From a virus: DNA of 64,000 nucleotides. The stretch lies in IMG/VR virus record IMGVR_UViG_3300012208_000003, positions 1 through 64,000 of that record; one strand, given 5' to 3'. The stretch's first letter is position 1, and every line of letters starts with the position of its first letter. Both the position numbers and the translations under genes were made by a program. This document shows positions 12,688 through 59,765 of this stretch, piece after piece. The notes under the pieces were generated by a model. It was not told the origin of the DNA, did no database searches, and saw nothing but the letters and a program-made list of their open reading frames with translations.

Positions 12688-12834
12688 ATGAAACGTTTGG
12701 TTTGTTCAAAATGTGGCGCGCGTTGGGTCCCAAGAACCAAAAATCCAATTCAGTGTCCACGATGCAAATCTGTAAAGTGGAAAGGCGATGGTCATCATGG
12801 CCGAACAAGCAACCAAGAAAACAGCGGAACCTAA
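12688..12834 (+). CDS. Small zinc-ribbon protein
   Basis: 48 aa: MKRLVCSKCGARWVPRTK, then CPRC within 20 residues, so two CxxC pairs form a rubredoxin-like zinc ribbon. It directly follows the promoter and overlaps the RecT start. No clear ribosome site is present, so the start at 12688 is the first Met after the promoter and might be leaderless or weakly translated. The role is unknown. Confidence 0.6.
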   Translation: MKRLVCSKCGARWVPRTKNPIQCPRCKSVKWKGDGHHGRTSNQENSGT

Positions 12835-13915
12835 AAAAACAGATAACCCTGTCGTAGCAATGATTCACCAGGCTAAGCCGAATCTGATTGCACGGCTGCC
12901 GCAAGGCATTGACCGGGACCGTTTCTTTCTCGGCATCCTAACGGCGATCCAGAAAAGCAAAGCGAATTCAAAAGAGGGGCAAAGTTTAGCCGATTGCGAT
13001 CCGAACAGCGTCTTGCTGGCCGCTTATGATGCGGCCGAAGTCGGCTGCAGCCTCAGTCCTTCATTGCAGCTCGGCTGGCTGATCAACTACGGCGGCCAAG
13101 CGCAGTTCCAGCCGTCCTACCGTTTCTTTATCCAGAAAGCTTACGAGACCGGGGAAGTGAAAACTTTCTATGCCGAGTGCGTGTATGCATGCGACAAATT
13201 CGAACGCCAATTCGCCCCTAAACGGAATCTATTTCACGCGCCAGGCGACGGCGAACGATCGAGAAAAACGATTATCGGCGCCTACTCCTTTATCGAATTT
13301 ACCGATGGCACGGTCGATTGGGAATATCTTACGACCGAACAGATCGAACGGCATCGGAACCATTCAAAGCAACCCAACAGCATGAAATGGGTGGCCTTTT
13401 TTGAGGAAGGTTTCCGGATCACTCCGATCAGAGTAATTGCCAAGCGCTTGCCGCTCAAGAACCGCAATCTCGAAGGGCTGGTCGAAATCGTCAATCGCGA
13501 CGCCGAGCGCGACCTCGATATCCCGATAGATCAAATCTTGGAGCCTTCCATCCCGCGCCGAGTATCTGAAACGCCTGCGGAAAAGACCGTCATCACCGCT
13601 GCAACTGAAGAGTCAGCAAGCGAAAAGGCCAAAGAAGAACCGAAGCCTGCCAGCAAAGAAGCGGAAACGGCTGCTGCTACTTCCGCTACAACGAATGCTG
13701 CACCGGCAGGTTCCATGTTCGCCGAAGGCGACCAAGACCCCTATGTAACGCCCGCGGAGATACAAGACTTCTGGAATAAAGCCTTTGGTGCCAACTGGAA
13801 GAAAAACGAAGTCGTCAAGTTCATCAAGGAAACTTACAAAGTTGAAGCGCTGAAGGACATGCGGAAATCACAGCTTGCCAGCGCGTTGGACAGCATCACG
13901 CAAGCGAGGGAATAG
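12788..13915 (+). CDS. recT: RecT-family single-strand annealing protein
   Basis: 375 aa (start 12788, or ATG 12797). Core motifs LQLGWLINYGGQAQFQPSYR and RFFIQKAYETGEVKTFYAE are RecT-like, with the family's usual glycine-rich strand. The C-terminal 130 residues are an Ala/Glu/Lys-rich linker and a helical tail. RecT anneals complementary single strands and works with a 5'-3' exonuclease; the next gene encodes a likely one. Confidence 0.9.
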   Translation: MVIMAEQATKKTAEPKKTDNPVVAMIHQAKPNLIARLPQGIDRDRFFLGILTAIQKSKANSKEGQSLADCDPNSVLLAAYDAAEVGCSLSPSLQLGWLINYGGQAQFQPSYRFFIQKAYETGEVKTFYAECVYACDKFERQFAPKRNLFHAPGDGERSRKTIIGAYSFIEFTDGTVDWEYLTTEQIERHRNHSKQPNSMKWVAFFEEGFRITPIRVIAKRLPLKNRNLEGLVEIVNRDAERDLDIPIDQILEPSIPRRVSETPAEKTVITAATEESASEKAKEEPKPASKEAETAAATSATTNAAPAGSMFAEGDQDPYVTPAEIQDFWNKAFGANWKKNEVVKFIKETYKVEALKDMRKSQLASALDSITQARE

Positions 13916-16332: not shown

Positions 16333-16419
16333 GGCGTGGCACGGAAGTAAAGGACTGGCGAGTCGCGATGCGTCGTGATAAGACGAGGCGCGGTTTTGCC
16401 GGCACGGAGGTCTGGAGCG
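16333..16419 (+). repeat. G5 segment before the HerA-like gene
   Basis: G at every fifth base in the phase 16352, 16357 and on to 16392 (9 of 9), then 16402 and 16407, with a shifted phase (16333, 16338, 16343) before it. It occupies the whole gap in front of the ATPase and ends at its GGAGG ribosome site (16406-16410). Confidence 0.7.
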
Positions 16420-18234
16420 GTGCATATTGTAATTGGAAAATCCGAGGGCAAGAACGTTTCCTTGGATGTAAAGGCACTGCTCCGGACCCATCTTCTAATT
16501 TGGGCGAGCACGGGAGGCGGAAAATCGTTTTTGATTCGTCGCATGGTTGAGCAATTGTTCGGGAAAACGCCAATTTTGATCATCGATCGCGAAGGCGAAT
16601 TTCAAACCCTGCGCGAAAAATTTGGGTTCGTGCTCGTAGGACAAAATGGCGAAACGCCAGCCGATCCAAGGTCAGCCAAAATCGTAGCTGAGCGACTCCT
16701 CGAGATGCGCGCGTCGGCCGTGTGCGATCTATTCGAACTGAGCCATGAGGCACGTCATGAATGGGTAAGGAATTTTTATCTTGCACTGATCAATGCTCCG
16801 AAGCGACTTTGGGGACCCACAACAGTTTGGTTGGACGAGGCCCATTCCTTCGCTCCTGAGAAAGGGCAAGGTGAATCGATCGCCTACGGCGCCGTGACCG
16901 ACTTCAATGGCGTTGCCCGTAAACGAGGTTTTGGAAGCATCTTCGCCACACAACGCCTAGCCAAACTCAGCAAGAATGCCACAGCCGAAATGTACAACCA
17001 GGCAGCTGGTCCAACAGCGCAGCAATCCGATAGGGACCGTGCGGCCTACGAGATGGGCATTAGCGGGAAGGCGGCGGTGACGGAATTTTCTGACGCTTTA
17101 CGTACGCTTGACCCTGGGAATTTCTTCTTTCAGGGCCGTGCTATTTCGATGGACAAGGTTCTCGTCAAGGTTGGTCCAATCCAGACTTCCCATGGAACTG
17201 AAACAACTGGCAAGGCCGCCGCCAAGGCACCGCCAACGCCAGAAGAAGTTAAGAAGATGCTGCCGAAACTAGCCGATCTTCCGAAAGTAGCCGAGGAGCG
17301 AGCCAGGAGTGAAGCCGATCTACGTAAAGAAATCCGCGAATTGAAGCAACAGTTGCGAGCCCAACCGGCCATGACAACAAAAGTTGTCACCGCCCACAAA
17401 CCCATCAAAGCTTCCGCTGCGGAGATTCGCCATATACTTCAGGCAGAACTCGATCCATGGCGCAAATTCGCCCAGGATGTGCGTCGCCGGCTGGTTGACT
17501 CGATGGAATTGATCAACAAGTTTGGCAGCATGTCGTTGGATTTCGCCAATAAGGCAGGTGACTACCTCAAAGAGTATGGCCCGATCCCCAACTATCCAGT
17601 TCTGCATCCTGACTTCAAGGCATTGAAAACAAAGGTGATTGCCCATGGAACCTTACCAGTATTACGCCATGACGAAAATCCTGTCGCGCATCGAACGGAA
17701 ACTCAACCGCATCCAGCGCAACTTAACCGCGCGCGAGCAGCTCCGGGCGCTGGCGAGCGTTCCACATGGAACGGCGACCTCCCGCAAGGCGAGAAAGAAA
17801 TCCTGATTGCCATTGCTCGCTATCAGGAAGGCGTCGAACGGAACCAACTCACCGTCCTAACTTCATATAAGCGATCGACCAGGGACGCTTATATTGCCAG
17901 GCTCAAGCCTAAAGGCCTGATCGAACTGCGCGGCGATCGGATCCTTGCGACCGAAGCCGGCATTGCAGCCCTGGGCAGCGACTATACGCCTCAACCTGCC
18001 ACTGGCGAGGAATTGCAGCGATACTGGATGTCGGAACTTCCCGAGGGCGAGAAGAAAATCCTCCAATTGCTGATTGCTGCAGGCGGGGAGCCCGTAGACA
18101 GGGAGAAATTGGACGAAGCCACGGGATTTGCCAGGTCCAGCAGGGATGCTTATCTAAGCCGCCTGGGTGCCAAACGCTTAGTGCATGCGATTGGCCGCGG
18201 TCAAGTGCAGGCTTCTCAAAGTTTGTTCACATAG
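16420..18234 (+). CDS. HerA/FtsK-type ATPase with two winged-helix repeats
   Basis: 604 aa from GTG 16420 (GGAGG 9 bases upstream; a longer in-frame start at 16375 would run into the G5 segment). Walker A is ASTGGGKSF at residues 29-37; Walker B is TTVWLDEAHS at about 132-141; a Gln-rich sensor follows (FATQRLAKLS). This is a hexameric DNA-pumping ATPase of the HerA/DUF87 class, which works with nucleases in end resection. The C-terminus has a tandem duplication of about 65 residues (LPQGEKEIL..STRDAYIARLKPKGL and LPEGEKKIL..SSRDAYLSRLGAKRL), each a winged-helix DNA-binding unit. Confidence 0.8.
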   Translation: MHIVIGKSEGKNVSLDVKALLRTHLLIWASTGGGKSFLIRRMVEQLFGKTPILIIDREGEFQTLREKFGFVLVGQNGETPADPRSAKIVAERLLEMRASAVCDLFELSHEARHEWVRNFYLALINAPKRLWGPTTVWLDEAHSFAPEKGQGESIAYGAVTDFNGVARKRGFGSIFATQRLAKLSKNATAEMYNQAAGPTAQQSDRDRAAYEMGISGKAAVTEFSDALRTLDPGNFFFQGRAISMDKVLVKVGPIQTSHGTETTGKAAAKAPPTPEEVKKMLPKLADLPKVAEERARSEADLRKEIRELKQQLRAQPAMTTKVVTAHKPIKASAAEIRHILQAELDPWRKFAQDVRRRLVDSMELINKFGSMSLDFANKAGDYLKEYGPIPNYPVLHPDFKALKTKVIAHGTLPVLRHDENPVAHRTETQPHPAQLNRARAAPGAGERSTWNGDLPQGEKEILIAIARYQEGVERNQLTVLTSYKRSTRDAYIARLKPKGLIELRGDRILATEAGIAALGSDYTPQPATGEELQRYWMSELPEGEKKILQLLIAAGGEPVDREKLDEATGFARSSRDAYLSRLGAKRLVHAIGRGQVQASQSLFT

Positions 18235-46163: not shown

Positions 46164-46520
46164 ATGGGAAACATTCCTCCAGATGAACAGCAGATTCCAG
46201 AACCAGAGCCGGAAGAAGACCTCCGACAATTCTTCGATAGTTCAGAGCAAGTACTCGCGATGAGCATCCAGAAGACTGGCATGAAACAGTTATGGGAACG
46301 CCAGACGTTTTTCAGCACCTATGAATCGCGGCTGCAGGCGCTTGCCGTGCGGCACAATCTGGAGCCGGCCATCCTCAAAGCATTGGTCGAAGACGCCTTC
46401 GGAACGTGCGATACTCCTCCTGCCGAGCAAGAGGCTAAGTTAGCGCTGATGAAACTAGCTAAACTGAAGATCGGGCCTTGCTCCGTGAATTGGCTCTTCC
46501 AAGTCCACATTCTAAAATAG
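46164..46520 (+). CDS. Hypothetical protein sharing a segment with the AAA+ ATPase
   Basis: 118 aa; leader AAAGGGAGAAACGATAATG. Residues about 27-45 (SEQVLAMSIQKTGMKQLWER) match the downstream ATPase (AEQVCAMSIRKTGM, then QLWERK). The two probably share this helix through duplication, or interact through a common partner. Otherwise helical and acidic. Confidence 0.6.
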   Translation: MGNIPPDEQQIPEPEPEEDLRQFFDSSEQVLAMSIQKTGMKQLWERQTFFSTYESRLQALAVRHNLEPAILKALVEDAFGTCDTPPAEQEAKLALMKLAKLKIGPCSVNWLFQVHILK

Positions 46521-46528
46521 GAGCGAAG

Positions 46529-46648
46529 ATGACCGAAACCATGAATGAAATCCGCATCCGCGGCTGGCAGGTTCTTTTCGTGATGGGCGTGCTGTTGCTC
46601 GAGACCTGGTGGATTGTCAAATCGGTGGCCGATAGCATCGGCTACTAA
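46529..46648 (+). CDS. 39-aa single-span membrane peptide
   Basis: MTETMNEIRIRGWQVLFVMG continues into one transmembrane helix (LLLETWWIVKSVA). AATAGGAGCGAAG upstream. Too short for a confident function. Confidence 0.5.
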   Translation: MTETMNEIRIRGWQVLFVMGVLLLETWWIVKSVADSIGY

Positions 46649-46679: not shown

Positions 46680-48239
46680 ATGGCTCTAAGTTTTATTAAA
46701 CAGTTCAATCTGGCGCGGCGCGCATCCGCTCCATTGATTGCCGTCCGGACGCCGGACATCGAGGCGACCATCAAGACGATTGCGCTCAACAAAGACAATG
46801 CCAATTCGCCGATGATTCTGCACGATTGTGTCCGCGGGTTGACGGCCGTAAACGATCAGGCCAAAGGATTAATCCGGGCACTTGGAGACCCTGCTTCTCT
46901 TGCGAACCCAGTCGAAATGCTGGTCAAGGCGATGCAGATGCCCAAAGAAGCGATTCTCTTCATGGCCAATCTGCACCGGTTCTTTCACGACCCAGCGGTC
47001 GTACAAGCCATCTGGAACCTGCGCGGAGCCTTCAAAACCAATACACGCACTTTGGTTATTGTTTGCCCGGACGTTACGCTTCCTCCGGAGATTGCCCAGG
47101 ATGTTCTTGTCCTGGACGAGCCTTTGCCGGATGCCAATCGCCTGGAAGCGATCGTAGCGGAAACCTATTCGGCGGTGAGCCAGCCAAAGCCGGCTGCCGA
47201 GACCATGTCGCGCTCTGTTGATGCGCTTTGCGGCCTGGCTGCCTTTGCCGCAGAGCAAGTTTGTGCCATGAGCATCCGGAAGACCGGCATGGACCTGGAA
47301 CAGCTCTGGGAACGAAAGAGACAACAGATTGAACAAACACCCGGCCTCAAAGTGTGGCGCGGCCAGCAACGTTTCAAGGATATTGGCGGCTGCGAGAACA
47401 TCAAGAAATTCCTGACCAGCGTGATGAATGGCAAGAACCGCCCGCGCGCCATCGTCTTTCAGGATGAAATCGAAAAGCAATTTGCGGGCGGCGAAGGCGG
47501 CGACCTGAGCGGCACAACGCAAGAGCTCCTGGGCAATCAGCTCTCTTTCATGCAGGACCACGACTCAACCGGCATCATGTCGATCGGGCATCCCGGCGTC
47601 GCCAAATCCGATATCGCCAAAGCCTTTGGAAACGAAGCTGGCGTGCCAACGATACAGTTGGATCTCGGAAATGCAAAGGGAAGTTTGGTTGGCGAATCAA
47701 ACGCCAACATGCGCGCGATTCTCAAGGTTATTGAAGCCGTCTCGCAGGGACGAGCCTTGTGGATTGCTACCTGCAATAACATTCAAGGATTGCCGGCAGA
47801 ACTACGCAGCCGGTATACCTTTGGCACGTTTTTCTATGACTTGCCGACACCTTCCGAACGCAACCTGATCTGGAACATCTATTTCGAAAAGTTCGATTTG
47901 AAGGACCGCGACAAGCCGCTCGACACCGGATGGAACGGAAGAGAAATCAAGAATTGCTGCCGGTTGGCGCATGACCTAGAAGTCCCGCTCCGGGAAGCTG
48001 CGACCTACATCGTTCCGCTATCCACCAGCGCCTCCGAGCGCATCACTTCCCTGCGCAAGGAAGCCGATGGCCGCTACATTTCCGCCGCCTATCCCGGGCC
48101 CTACAAAGCGCCCGAAGGCATGGATGAAACCGAACCCGAGAAGATGGTTGTCGCTGTCGGCATCTTGAATACCCCTAAGCGCAAAATCTCTACTGGCGGC
48201 AGTGGGTCCGGAAGCAAAGGCAGCGGAAACGTAAACTGA
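46680..48239 (+). CDS. Ycf46-like AAA+ ATPase with transposed Walker B
   Basis: 519 aa; leader AAAAAGGGAGAAACAAAATG. The ATPase core begins FKDIGGCENIKKFL, as in Ycf46-type AAA proteins. Walker A is GHPGVAKSD at about residue 302. Between GESNANMRAILKVIEAVSQG and the sensor-1 strand ALWIATCNNIQGLP, where Walker B should be, it is absent. Instead RAIVFQDEIEKQFAGGEGGD lies before Walker A, at about residue 258. The order is thus B-A-sensor1 instead of A-B-sensor1. SWIM, DUF1257 and DUF2997 genes follow, a set associated with Ycf46-like ATPases. Low-complexity Gly/Ser tail. Confidence 0.8.
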   Translation: MALSFIKQFNLARRASAPLIAVRTPDIEATIKTIALNKDNANSPMILHDCVRGLTAVNDQAKGLIRALGDPASLANPVEMLVKAMQMPKEAILFMANLHRFFHDPAVVQAIWNLRGAFKTNTRTLVIVCPDVTLPPEIAQDVLVLDEPLPDANRLEAIVAETYSAVSQPKPAAETMSRSVDALCGLAAFAAEQVCAMSIRKTGMDLEQLWERKRQQIEQTPGLKVWRGQQRFKDIGGCENIKKFLTSVMNGKNRPRAIVFQDEIEKQFAGGEGGDLSGTTQELLGNQLSFMQDHDSTGIMSIGHPGVAKSDIAKAFGNEAGVPTIQLDLGNAKGSLVGESNANMRAILKVIEAVSQGRALWIATCNNIQGLPAELRSRYTFGTFFYDLPTPSERNLIWNIYFEKFDLKDRDKPLDTGWNGREIKNCCRLAHDLEVPLREAATYIVPLSTSASERITSLRKEADGRYISAAYPGPYKAPEGMDETEPEKMVVAVGILNTPKRKISTGGSGSGSKGSGNVN

Positions 48240-49006: not shown

Positions 49007-49035
49007 CTAATTTCAAAAACGAAAGGAAGTGCATC

Positions 49036-49473
49036 ATGTCTCATGTAAGTAAATTCGAATTACAGGTCACCGATCTCGACAGTTTAGATGCAGCCTGTAA
49101 AGAATTAGGGCTAGAGCTCGTCCGTAACCAGCAAACGTACAAATGGTATGGCCGTTCCGTTGGCGATTATCCAGTTCCACAAGGCTTCACTGAACAGGAC
49201 CTGGGAAAATGCGAACATGCAGTCAGAATCCCAGACAATCGAACCGCTTACGAAATCGGTGTTGTCAAAAGCCGCACTGGCAAAGGTTATGAATTGCTTT
49301 GGGATTTTTATGCCGGCGGCTACGGCATGGAAGCGAAGGTCGGCAAAGACGGCTGCAAGTTGAAACAGCAATACGAAGTGCAGCATGGCGCTCGCTTTTG
49401 GCGTCGCAAAGGCTACAGGGTCACAACGCAAACTCAACAAGACGGCCACATCCGCGTGAAGTGCAGTCGATAA
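49036..49473 (+). CDS. DUF1257 (Ycf35-like) protein
   Basis: 145 aa; AAAGGAAGTGCATC upstream. The N-terminus SHVSKFELQVTDLDSLDAAC, then ELGLELVRNQQTYKWYG is the DUF1257 signature. DUF1257 genes sit beside Ycf46-like ATPases and DUF2997 genes in cyanobacteria and phages; all three are present here. The molecular function of the family is not known. Confidence 0.85.
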   Translation: MSHVSKFELQVTDLDSLDAACKELGLELVRNQQTYKWYGRSVGDYPVPQGFTEQDLGKCEHAVRIPDNRTAYEIGVVKSRTGKGYELLWDFYAGGYGMEAKVGKDGCKLKQQYEVQHGARFWRRKGYRVTTQTQQDGHIRVKCSR

Positions 49474-49505: not shown

Positions 49506-49694
49506 ATGGCTCATGATATCGTCATCGACGTTGCACCGAACGGAGAAGTGAAAATTGAAGTCAAAGGATTCAAAGGCGCGGGCTGCAAGGCGCTCACAAA
49601 GGAATTCGAAGAGAGCCTAGGTAAAAAGATCAGCTCTGTTGACACAAAGGAGGTTTATGAGTCGGAACGAATTCCAGTTCGCAATCGCGCCTGA
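49506..49694 (+). CDS. DUF2997 protein
   Basis: 62 aa: HDIVIDVAPNGEVKIEVKGF, GAGCKALTKEFEESLG. This matches DUF2997, which pairs with DUF1257. Preceded by AAAAAAAAGGAGAACAAAA. Overlaps the next gene's start. Confidence 0.8.
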   Translation: MAHDIVIDVAPNGEVKIEVKGFKGAGCKALTKEFEESLGKKISSVDTKEVYESERIPVRNRA

Positions 49695-50252: not shown

Positions 50253-50477
50253 ATGATTACTTTCAAAGCAGGGGACATTGTGACTGTCAGCCGGCTGAAT
50301 TGCTACGACGAACCAATAACGCAAACCGTTCAGTTGATCGAACGGCAGAAGGACGGGAACGTGCCCGGGTGGTCTGCCCGGGTCCAGGCTCCACGCAAAC
50401 AGAAAGGTCGGCTCACCTGGGTAGCGGATGGCGAGATGCCAGATTTGCCGGGGCAAGAAGTGCAAACTAAGGTTTGA
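50253..50477 (+). CDS. Hypothetical 74-aa protein
   Basis: MITFKAGDIVTVSRLNCYDE; AATGGAGGCTTGA upstream. SH3-like beta-barrel style. Unknown. Confidence 0.6.
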   Translation: MITFKAGDIVTVSRLNCYDEPITQTVQLIERQKDGNVPGWSARVQAPRKQKGRLTWVADGEMPDLPGQEVQTKV

Positions 50478-50493
50478 AAAAGGGAGAAACAAA

Positions 50494-51594
50494 ATGAAAG
50501 CAGCAACAGCAGCGCAGAAGTCTATTAGACATTTGGCAGCACTGAAAGCGTGGGCCACAATGCGAGCAAGAAAAGGTCAGCCTGCGCCAGTACCAAAGCC
50601 AGTAAGACCCCGACCGAAGATGGAACCGCACAAGAAGATCGTATTGCCGAAGCAGGAACGGCCGGTATCAGCAAACGAGCTGCTTTTGCGAACCGTCGTT
50701 TTGATTTTGACTTTCAACGGCATCGGCAACCGCCGCAAAGTGCAATCCGATGAATTCCAGGCCGCCTCAACGCCGAACGCAAAGAATGACAATTGGTTCA
50801 ACACCACCAAGAAACTCCTCGATGCCGAAGAGCTCGAAAAAATTACTTCGCTGTATGGCGAGCTACACCGGTTTGTCGAGAGCCGGGCGCTGCCATCCAT
50901 GATCAAAAAAGGCGTCCATCTTCTTCCACTGGATTTCATCGAGGAAGTGAATGCCCGGCTGAAACAAGGTGAGAAAGATCTCGAGCCGCTGGTCGAGAGC
51001 ATGGTCAAGAAACTCAACACCTACATTGCCGAAGCCAAAGCCCGGCTATCGAAAGTAAAAGTGGGCGATCAGGTCAAAAACTTCTTCAACGAGGACGATT
51101 ACCCGACCGGGAAAGAATTGCGCGCCGCTTTCAAGCTGACCTGGCGATTCGTCTATGTGGACAGTGCCAAGAATCTTGAAGCGGTTTCCAAGGAGATCTA
51201 CGAAGAAGAACGCGCGAAGGCCGAGGCCGCTTGGGCCGAAACACGTGAAACCATCAAGCAACTGCTTCGTACGCAGTTATCGGAATTGGTCGATCATTTG
51301 GTTACTCGACTAACACCGGACGAAAGCGGCAAGAAGAAGATCATTCGCGATGATTCAACTAACAGGTTGCAGGAATTCTTGACGACTTTCGATTCGCGGA
51401 ACATTGTCAATGACGTACAGATGAAAATCCTTGTCGACCAGGCCAAGAATCTGCTCAAGACAGCAGACGCCGACATGCTCCGGACAGATAAGACCGTCCG
51501 CGACTACGTTAGACACGGGTTTGAAACCGTTCAAACTTTACTAAGCGGCATGGTGGTTGACAAGCCTCACCGCTCCATCAAACTCGAAGATTAG
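50494..51594 (+). CDS. Hypothetical 366-aa protein, DUF3150-like
   Basis: Leader AAAAAGGGAGAAACAAAATG. A basic Pro-rich N-terminus, then LLLRTVVLILTFNGIGNRRK, KNDNWFNTTKKLL, LPSMIKKGVHLLPLDFIEEV and a long coiled coil. The layout recalls DUF3150 proteins of phages and plasmids; I am not certain. Ends SIKLED. Confidence 0.6.
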   Translation: MKAATAAQKSIRHLAALKAWATMRARKGQPAPVPKPVRPRPKMEPHKKIVLPKQERPVSANELLLRTVVLILTFNGIGNRRKVQSDEFQAASTPNAKNDNWFNTTKKLLDAEELEKITSLYGELHRFVESRALPSMIKKGVHLLPLDFIEEVNARLKQGEKDLEPLVESMVKKLNTYIAEAKARLSKVKVGDQVKNFFNEDDYPTGKELRAAFKLTWRFVYVDSAKNLEAVSKEIYEEERAKAEAAWAETRETIKQLLRTQLSELVDHLVTRLTPDESGKKKIIRDDSTNRLQEFLTTFDSRNIVNDVQMKILVDQAKNLLKTADADMLRTDKTVRDYVRHGFETVQTLLSGMVVDKPHRSIKLED

Positions 51595-52276: not shown

Positions 52277-53113
52277 ATGGCGACTCGCACATGGAAGGGC
52301 TTCATCAGTTTCGGCCTGTTATCAATTCCAGTCGGCCTTGCAGTAGCTGCACGGGATGAACATATCTCATTGAACATGCTGCATTCAAGTTGTAAGGGCA
52401 GAATCAGAATGCCGCGAACATGCGAAATCTGCAAGACGGTTGTTCCATCGGAAGAAATCGTCAAAGCCTATCCGACCGGGAATGATGCGTATGTCGTTCT
52501 GACAGAACAAGAAATCGACGCCATTGAACCGCAATCCGGCAAGACCATAGAAATCAGTCATTGTGTTCGTGCCGCTGAAGTGGATGAAGTTTATCTTGGC
52601 GAATCTTTTTTCATTCTTCCAGAGGCTCCAGGATTGAAAGCATACGGTCTTCTGGTCCGAGCATTGAAGGATTCCGGCCGAGTGGCGCTCGCGCAAATCT
52701 GCAAAAGCAATCGCGAACATATCGTATTGCTTCGGCCGCGCGGCACCGGTCTCGTGGCGCACTTTTTGTTTTACCCAAGCGAAGTCCATAAGGTCGCCGA
52801 ATTCGATTCGATCGTATCGCCAGACCTATCAAAAAATGAAATCGCCCTAGCCCTAAAGTTGGTGGAGTCCTTGGCATCTGATTTTTGTCCAGATGAATTT
52901 GAGAATGGCTATGAAATGCGGCTCAGCCAATTGATTGCCAGCAAAATGGATAGTAAAGTCGCGGCTCCGACGCCGGTCAATGTCCCGACAAAAGTCCCGA
53001 CAATCGATATCGCTAGTGCGCTTATCGCATCGCTCGCGTCTCCGAAGCGCAAGGCCGGTACAGAAGAGGCCGCTCCGAAGGGCAAAGCCAAAAAGGGCAA
53101 GAAAGCCGCCTAA
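52277..53113 (+). CDS. ku: Ku-family DNA end-binding protein
   Basis: 278 aa; leader AAGGGGAGAAACAAATG. The N-terminus ATRTWKGFISFGLLSIPVGL is the bacterial Ku signature; CEICKTVVPSEEIVKAYPTG, ISHCVRAAEVDEVYL and YGLLVRALKDSGRVALAQIC follow in order. The C-terminus is basic and disordered (KGKAKKGKKAA), a DNA-binding tail. Ku holds double-strand ends for end joining; the phage also encodes an ATP-dependent ligase (58662) with the same kind of leader. Confidence 0.92.
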   Translation: MATRTWKGFISFGLLSIPVGLAVAARDEHISLNMLHSSCKGRIRMPRTCEICKTVVPSEEIVKAYPTGNDAYVVLTEQEIDAIEPQSGKTIEISHCVRAAEVDEVYLGESFFILPEAPGLKAYGLLVRALKDSGRVALAQICKSNREHIVLLRPRGTGLVAHFLFYPSEVHKVAEFDSIVSPDLSKNEIALALKLVESLASDFCPDEFENGYEMRLSQLIASKMDSKVAAPTPVNVPTKVPTIDIASALIASLASPKRKAGTEEAAPKGKAKKGKKAA

Positions 53114-58661: not shown

Positions 58662-59765
58662 ATGAAGGCAACGATTTTGTATTACAACGATTTGGCAACA
58701 GGCGGAAGCAGCGACAAGGAATACCGCGTTCAGATTGAGCATTTCAAAAAGGGCCAGTGGAATCCGGCACCACAATTGGAAGGCTACGTCGTGCTATTCC
58801 AGTACGGGCGCCGCGGCGGAACACTCACGGCTGGTCATAAATGCGATCCGGTTCAACTCGCAGAAGCAGAACGCATCTACGACAAATTGGTCCGCGAAAA
58901 AACTTCAAAGGGCTACGTCGGCGCGGAGGCCGGCACCGCGGCTCCGCTCGCGCCAGTCGAACCGCCAGACAATAGTACGCGGACACAGTTCCCGGTCGAG
59001 CTGCTCGAGGAAGTCACGCGGGAAGAAGCAGAACTATTGGTTAAAGATGACCGCTACCTTCTGCAAACCAAACTCGACGGGCATCGCCGTCAAATTGAAA
59101 AGACAAAGACCGGCGATTTTGTGGGTTATAACAAGAAAGGCGAGCCAGTTGCCCTCTCGGCAGAGTTGGTCAAGAGTCTCAAAGCCATCACCCTTGATTC
59201 TTTTTTCCTTGATGGCGAGATCATCGGCGACAAGTATTACGCCTTCGATATTTTCTTTGCTGATGGCACGAATATCAGAACCATGCCTTATGAAAAGCGC
59301 TGGCTGCTTCTTGATGAGAAGGCTCCGGATTTCGCGGTCGATACCTGGCATTCAACGGCTCAGAAGCAAGCCGCCCTAGCATTGCTTCTGAAACGACGCG
59401 CTGAAGGTATTTGTTTCAAACGCAAAGATGCACCTTATCGCGCAGGTCGGAACGGTCAACATAAGAAATTCAAATTCCTAAAGAGTGCTAGTTGCAAGGT
59501 CATTGGAATGGGTCACAAAGGTCACAATTCTGCGACACTCGCACTGCTCGACAAAGGCAAATGGCGCGAAGTTGGTCGTGTCAGTTTGAACGGGAAAGAT
59601 TCACGAATCAAGCTTGGCTCGATTCTTGAAATCACATTTTTATATGTCGGAAGTGGCGGCCGTTTGTATCAACCGCGCGTCAAGGAAATGCGCACAGATA
59701 TAGCCGAATCGGAATGCGTTTTCGCTCAACTCAAGAAGGCTTTCAAAGAAGGGATTGCAGCCTAA
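58662..59765 (+). CDS. lig: ATP-dependent DNA ligase with N-terminal WGR domain
   Basis: 367 aa; leader AAAAAGGGAGAAACAGAAATG. Residues 1-80 are a WGR domain (KEYRVQIEHFKKGQW, GYVVLFQYGRRGG). Residues about 105-290 form the ligase nucleotidyltransferase: motif I KLDGHRR with Lys at about 137, motif III-like FFLDGEIIG, motif IV GICFKRKDAPY, motif V KFKFLKSASC; an OB-fold follows. With Ku this forms a minimal bacterial-type end-joining pair. No primase or phosphoesterase domain is attached. Confidence 0.9.
   Translation: MKATILYYNDLATGGSSDKEYRVQIEHFKKGQWNPAPQLEGYVVLFQYGRRGGTLTAGHKCDPVQLAEAERIYDKLVREKTSKGYVGAEAGTAAPLAPVEPPDNSTRTQFPVELLEEVTREEAELLVKDDRYLLQTKLDGHRRQIEKTKTGDFVGYNKKGEPVALSAELVKSLKAITLDSFFLDGEIIGDKYYAFDIFFADGTNIRTMPYEKRWLLLDEKAPDFAVDTWHSTAQKQAALALLLKRRAEGICFKRKDAPYRAGRNGQHKKFKFLKSASCKVIGMGHKGHNSATLALLDKGKWREVGRVSLNGKDSRIKLGSILEITFLYVGSGGRLYQPRVKEMRTDIAESECVFAQLKKAFKEGIAA

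Follow-up and report, generated by a model that had tools for sequence, protein, structure and literature searches.

Walker B ahead of Walker A: exchanged blocks in the catalytic core of a Ycf46-like AAA+ ATPase of bacterial viruses

The locus and its rearranged ATPase gene

The window, a stretch of 64,000 nucleotides that forms part of a 65,208-base IMG/VR virus record, codes on its plus strand for an ATPase of 519 residues, translated here from the ATG at 46680. The program-made reading frame opens further upstream, at a TTG at 46614; the orthologues at loci L001 and L002 start at the methionine of ATG 46680. The Pfam AAA match of the protein (8.9e-10) spans only the P-loop block, residues 301-352, and phrog_8638 matches it (E 1.2e-37) in four stretches. 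The features of the gene and its operon partners are as follows.

46680..48239 (+): block-swapped Ycf46-like AAA+ ATPase, 519 aa (translation; Pfam AAA; orthologue starts)
46680..47342 (+): N-terminal domain, residues 1-221, P-loop-less and AAA-like (no P-loop; DSSP of the model; VIA comparison with p97 D1)
47343..47444 (+): linker and helix alpha0 (FKDIGGCENIKKFLTSVMNGKNRPR), joined to the following strand by a short connector (end of HMM block 1: residue 247)
47445..47567 (+): moved block beta3-alpha3, residues 256-296, with Walker B IVFQDEIEK (D262, E263) and the SGTTQELLGNQLSFMQD helix (HMM 332-373)
47568..47747 (+): beta1-P-loop-alpha1-beta2-pore loop-alpha2 block, residues 297-356, with Walker A at 47586-47609 (HMM 273-332)
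47748..48095 (+): beta4 (sensor 1 ATCN, N366), putative arginine-finger region (R378), beta5 and lid, residues 357-472 (HMM 372-505)
49033..49473 (+): DUF1257 (Ycf35-like) operon partner (Pfam PF06868, 1.2e-4, above the cut-off)
49506..49694 (+): DUF2997 operon partner (Pfam PF11211, 4.9e-13)
50476..51594 (+): DUF3150-like operon partner (Pfam PF11348, E 0.0039, below the cut-off)

Across the core, the translation reads ...FKDIGGCENIKKFLTSVMNGKNRPRA-IVFQDEIEKQFAGGEGGDLSGTTQELLGNQLSFMQD-HDST-GIMSIGHPGVAKSDIAKAFGNEAGVPTIQLDLGNAKGSLVGESNANMRAILKVIEAVSQG-RALWIATCNNIQGLPAELRSRY..., and the Walker B segment AIVFQDEIEKQFAGGEGGDLSGTTQELLGNQLSFMQD (residues 257-293) lies N-terminal to the P-loop GHPGVAKS. 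The sequence DEIEK occupies residues 262-266 (nucleotides 47463-47477), the P-loop residues 303-310 (47586-47609) and the sensor 1 motif ATCN, which comes after the GES helix and a short turn, residues 363-366 (47766-47777), so that all three fall within 47370-47850. In the predicted model, the moved block holds a strand at 257-261 and a helix at 278-293.

The same order emerges from a comparison with a canonical HMM, built from 76 non-redundant homologues of canonical order (from one scan and four phage records). It matches the ATPase with a total E of 2.2e-70, in four blocks that follow one another in the order A-C-B-D: HMM 12-255 at residues 7-247 (independent E 1e-34), HMM 332-373 at residues 256-296 (9e-8), HMM 273-332 at residues 297-356 (1.5e-18) and HMM 372-505 at residues 356-472 (3.5e-10). 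The canonical connector from helix alpha0 to beta1 (HMM 256-272) is also absent from the protein. The first-pass annotation had read the Walker B block as preceding the P-loop, with its canonical place closed up, and both the translation and the four-block match bear this out.

Just upstream of the ATPase gene, a 118-aa ORF at 46164-46520 (+), also present in L001 and L002, contains a partial copy (EQVLAMSIQKTGMKQLWER) of ATPase residues 192-212. At the DNA level, 46243-46283 and 47251-47291 are 83% identical over 41 nt. The ORF is possibly a small paralogous fragment, either a regulatory mimic or a relic of recombination.

Distribution and descent of the exchanged order

The non-collinear A-C-B-D pattern appears in 80/80 non-redundant relatives, among them the ATPase of Tunturi_3, as the alignment to phage homologues proposed with the first annotation reveals, and in 0/76 canonical proteins. 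In every one of the latter, P-loop and Walker B lie in one collinear block, in keeping with the order of P-loop, Walker B and sensor that had been taken as typical of Ycf46. Since the relatives were gathered by motifs of the N-domain or of the lid, both outside the swapped region, the block order was not selected for. A further scan with the lid motif gave 80 loci, all of them swapped, and 111 distinct domain sequences were collected altogether. The profile of the moved block matches the window protein with an E of 9e-8, and the swapped relatives with a median of 2e-9. The Tunturi_3 ATPase, gp103, shares about 40% identity with that of the window, and its source is an isolated podovirus of an acidobacterium (PMC11924767).

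Circular permutation, one of the two routes suggested at the outset, was rejected: the N-domain, the linker and the C-terminal sensor-lid block are in their old places and only the two middle blocks exchange, nor are there new termini inside the domain with the old ones joined, as in a circularly permuted P-loop NTPase. The other route, a segment transposition, describes the change from A-B-C-D to A-C-B-D, and the rearrangement is thus an exchange of adjacent internal blocks. The linear order Walker A, Walker B, sensor 1 is broken by the Walker B block in all 80 relatives, and the ATPase is therefore filed as a rearranged AAA+ descendant and not as a standard member. In relation to the Ycf46-like family PHROG 8638, the profile similarity extends over the full length of the protein but the match is not collinear.

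Among bacterial genome contigs, one swapped copy was encountered, at L023 (5025-6548) on the Patescibacteria-binned contig JAGWWT010000007.1, next to genes for DUF1257, DUF2997 and DUF3150. No further swapped copy was detected among 286 Patescibacteria genomes, so that the L023 contig may stem from a phage and have been binned together with the host. The plasmid loci L272-L274, which look nearly collinear in tblastn, have the canonical order on inspection.

The swapped order has a single origin. For tree building, the homologous blocks were rearranged to a common order; a 69-row tree, whose bootstrap had not fully settled, sets the swapped proteins apart by a branch with bootstrap/SH-aLRT values of 100/100, and in a larger tree of 109 rows, calculated at quick level, they form a clade with SH-aLRT of 100. 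A sister subfamily of canonical order has a short connector, with 26-30 residues from IGG to the P-loop as against 36-38, and many of its members carry the compact W[ST]GAEI lid of the swapped proteins. It includes the Candidatus Manganitrophus plasmid protein WDT82709.1 and contigs L276-L301. Together, this subfamily and the swapped clade are set off from the long-connector proteins by a branch that likewise has 100/100. Because the sisters possess the short connector and the compact lid, the swap probably came last, with shortening as the earlier step if the tree is rooted within the long-connector group. A single swap event would thus have taken place in a lineage in which the alpha0-beta1 connector and the lid were already shortened, and its route may have been a tandem duplication of the two blocks with subsequent loss of the first and last copies. 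An intermediate with both copies of a block was not seen among 80 swapped, 76 canonical and 30 sister or other canonical sequences.

Predicted fold, catalytic residues and rival readings

The full-length AlphaFold2 model (pLDDT 82, pTM 0.69) was compared in VIA with p97, and its residues 3-466 align to p97 210-763 with a Z of 18.9 and an rmsd of 5.8 over 391 residues. In this alignment the P-loop-less N-domain corresponds to p97 D1. The Ycf46-type N-domain looks like a degenerate AAA domain that has no P-loop and matches D1, in which case Ycf46-like proteins would be tandem AAA proteins.

The AAA+ module, modelled alone from a 70-row alignment, reached a pLDDT of 94.8 and a pTM of 0.90, with five core strands in the chain order b3-b1-b2-b4-b5. 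Its VIA comparison with Vps4 gave a Z of 17.2 and an rmsd of 2.6 with 205/255 residues aligned, and that with p97 D2 a Z of 16.6 with 199 aligned; the approximately 50 residues left out by the sequential aligner equal the moved block plus loops in size. The absence of a family from the structure-search lists excludes no family. An AAA+ alpha-beta fold with lid, as found in the model, is strongly predicted for the swapped module, and the structure prediction and fold comparison that had been recommended for it thus yielded a confident AAA+ fold; AlphaFold2 may be biased towards the canonical form of this fold. DSSP of the module model assigns both beta2 and beta3 as strands, and since the sole open slot beside beta2 is that of beta3, the moved strand would sit in the normal beta3 place. 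Coevolution gave weak signals: with 80 sequences the beta2-beta3 pair ranked first, and with 111 sequences the best strand pairs were b1-b4, b3-b4 and b1-b5, with b3-b2 fifth.

The strand order of AAA+ sheets is 5-1-4-3-2, and from this order a geometry for the exchange can be proposed. Two neighbouring blocks, beta1-alpha1-beta2-alpha2 (Walker A) and beta3-alpha3 (Walker B), would change places through three cuts, each at the passage from a helix to a strand on the bottom side of the sheet, far from the nucleotide. In place of the links alpha0-beta1, alpha2-beta3 and alpha3-beta4 there would be alpha0-beta3, alpha3-beta1 and alpha2-beta4, while all strands would remain parallel and the handedness of the crossovers would be unchanged. 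As the re-made links would lie opposite the nucleotide and the crossovers would keep their direction, the fold could survive, with Walker A, Walker B, sensor 1 and the arginine finger still converging on one site.

The retention of every motif, as claimed in the first-pass annotation, holds throughout the swapped proteins. The P-loop lysine (K309), the Walker B glutamate (E263) and the sensor-1 asparagine (N366) are each invariant in 80/80, and the first acidic residue of Walker B is D in 76/80 and E in 4/80. In the window protein, Walker B conforms to hhhhDE (IVFQDE), Walker A (GHPGVAKS) is followed in kind by all 80 proteins with S or T after the lysine, and a polar sensor 1 residue is joined by R378, invariant in 17 aligned members and probably the arginine finger. 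The residue before the P-loop lysine is more variable, being G in 47/80 swapped proteins and Ala or Ser in the other 33/80, as against 0/76 canonical proteins with Ala or Ser. A P-loop of the type GxxGxAKS instead of GxxGxGKS could lower ATPase activity. The change from Gly to Ala or Ser goes with the swap, as a relaxed or a compensatory change. Between the window and L001, dN/dS is 0.105 for the whole gene and 0.014 for the moved block, the lowest of the segments measured.

Several other readings of the rearranged core were weighed. The protein might be a pseudo-ATPase or pure nucleotide switch, a nucleotide-gated scaffold that binds ATP and has lost efficient hydrolysis; the A or S before the P-loop lysine in about 40% of members and a first AAA-like domain without a P-loop agree with such a state. 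However, dead AAA domains usually lose the Walker B glutamate, the sensor-1 asparagine and the Walker B aspartate, whereas here the first two are kept in 80/80 and the third is D or E in all, and the moved block is under strong purifying selection, which makes the loss of catalysis unlikely. It has also to be considered that the upstream DEIEK is a decoy, away from the nucleotide, with another residue acting as Walker B, given that its place before the P-loop is, to our knowledge, unprecedented. Yet the block is homologous to the canonical Walker B-alpha3 segment by the profile matches given above, its acidic residues are conserved, and the alignment of relatives contains no acidic pair between helix alpha2 and sensor 1. 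An alternative acidic pair serving as Walker B, named in the first annotation as the finding that would speak against it, was thus looked for in vain, as was a duplicate or decoy Walker B in the canonical position, and the decoy reading is hardly credible.

Slightly less far-fetched, though still very improbable, is a swap of the beta3-alpha3 block between protomers, so that it would complete the core of the neighbouring subunit in a ring. Such swaps are known in other proteins, and the block is flanked by two connectors; these connectors, however, span just a few residues, and AlphaFold2 models the single chain with confidence. As the window comes from a metagenome-derived viral contig, one might suspect an artefact of assembly, frameshift or sequencing confined to that contig, but the isolated phage Tunturi_3 and over 100 distinct sequences have the same order with intact reading frames. 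Assembly error is therefore excluded and the artefact refuted. The evidence as a whole is best explained by a phage Ycf46-like tandem AAA protein with a competent block-exchanged module of one-event origin, which would form a client-remodelling ring and work with its DUF partners, and this explanation is considered likely.

Operon partners, related systems and proposed role

The ATPase shares its operon with the DUF1257, DUF2997 and DUF3150-like genes listed above. Within the flanks that were read, DUF3150 accompanies 70/80 swapped loci, DUF1257 43/80 and DUF2997 40/80, in all cases on the same strand; for the canonical loci, with shorter flanks read, the corresponding numbers are 18/80, 33/80 and 31/80. 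The DUF1257 and DUF2997 neighbours typical of the Ycf46-like family are thus present in the window by their Pfam matches. On the Manganitrophus plasmid, the cassette runs ATPase-DUF1257-DUF2997-DUF3150 in a row, with DUF3150 annotated there, and in Synechocystis DUF2997, DUF1257 (ycf35) and the ferredoxin fed7 form one cluster (PMC4284462).

The occurrence of the swapped enzyme in the same cassette as the canonical ones argues for the same job. We infer that it is a working p97-like tandem AAA remodelling ATPase, in which the first, P-loop-less and AAA-like domain would be followed by a catalytically competent AAA+ module. Its most likely role, put forward tentatively, would be to remodel, at the expense of ATP, a client that the DUF3150, DUF1257 and DUF2997 partners deliver, with the ATPase acting as a ring; the ring state and the client are guesses drawn from the family. 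A role in defence was rejected: PADLOC gave no match for the swapped protein, and a canonical relative had only an AAA-level match to IetA.

The canonical Ycf46-like ATPases of phages and plasmids (PHROG 8638; Rhizobium phage RHph_I4, Agrobacterium phage JP1) have the N-domain and motifs in common with the swapped protein, can be aligned to it block by block over the whole length, and share the DUF1257 and DUF2997 neighbours and sometimes DUF3150. They differ in that Walker B comes 58-60 residues after Walker A and in their longer alpha0-beta1 connector and lid. The short-connector sisters resemble the swapped proteins in the connector, often in the lid and in the plasmid cassette, but have the canonical order; in a tree rooted within the long-connector group, they would stand closest to the swapped clade. 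Further afield, p97/Cdc48 D2, Vps4 and spastin are alike in the predicted fold of the AAA+ module (Z 16-17), and the full-length model can be likened to the tandem D1-D2 layout of p97 (Z 18.9); all of these have the canonical order, and the first domain of p97 has a P-loop.

The TRAFAC GTPases RsgA/YjeQ and RbgA/YlqF are circularly permuted. The term 'circularly permuted' occurs in PMC6912228, which deals with TRAFAC GTPases. RsgA/YjeQ and RbgA/YlqF too are P-loop NTPases with a changed order of motifs along the chain, yet they belong to another P-loop class, and the swapped ATPase, unlike them, keeps both termini of its module. These GTPases are the nearest precedent, although for a different kind of change, and no description of a block-exchanged AAA+ core was found among the open-access papers searched. 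The swapped proteins are likely to represent a functional AAA+ lineage that arose by a one-event, non-circular exchange of two adjacent secondary-structure blocks, is widespread in bacterial viruses, has an extant pre-swap sister lineage and may be the first known case of re-threading of this kind among AAA+ proteins.

Such a lineage would be a rare natural rewiring of a very common enzyme fold, in a family of bacterial viruses. AAA+ motors are much-studied machines, and the order Walker A, Walker B, sensor 1 is part of their definition and is built into the search profiles; the Pfam AAA model sees only the P-loop block of the swapped ATPase and misses Walker B. Collinear profile searches may thus undercount rearranged enzymes in viral dark matter. 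A non-circular exchange in the catalytic core would imply that both the fold and the coupled chemistry of the ring survive re-threading. Since the short connector and lid occur in the closest canonical relatives too, the order of the steps can be worked out and put to the test. It may be asked whether the short connector makes the swap tolerable, and whether the new connectivity changes the relay of ATP hydrolysis to the pore loop and the neighbouring subunit.

Other genes of the window and of Tunturi_3 were also recorded. The window codes for a Ku protein at 52277-53113 (+) (Pfam Ku, 7e-38) and a WGR-bearing ATP-dependent DNA ligase at 58662-59765 (+), a possible phage-borne non-homologous end-joining pair. 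A RecT recombinase, a HerA/DUF87-type ATPase and a ParB protein are encoded at 12788-13915, 16375-18234 and 60776-62260 (all +), respectively. The 501-aa protein at 29509-31014 (+) has a C-terminal VWA-like domain with a weak CoxE-type match and resembles TROVE/Ro60 by eye, and in Tunturi_3 an RNA 2'-phosphotransferase is encoded near the ATPase of that phage.
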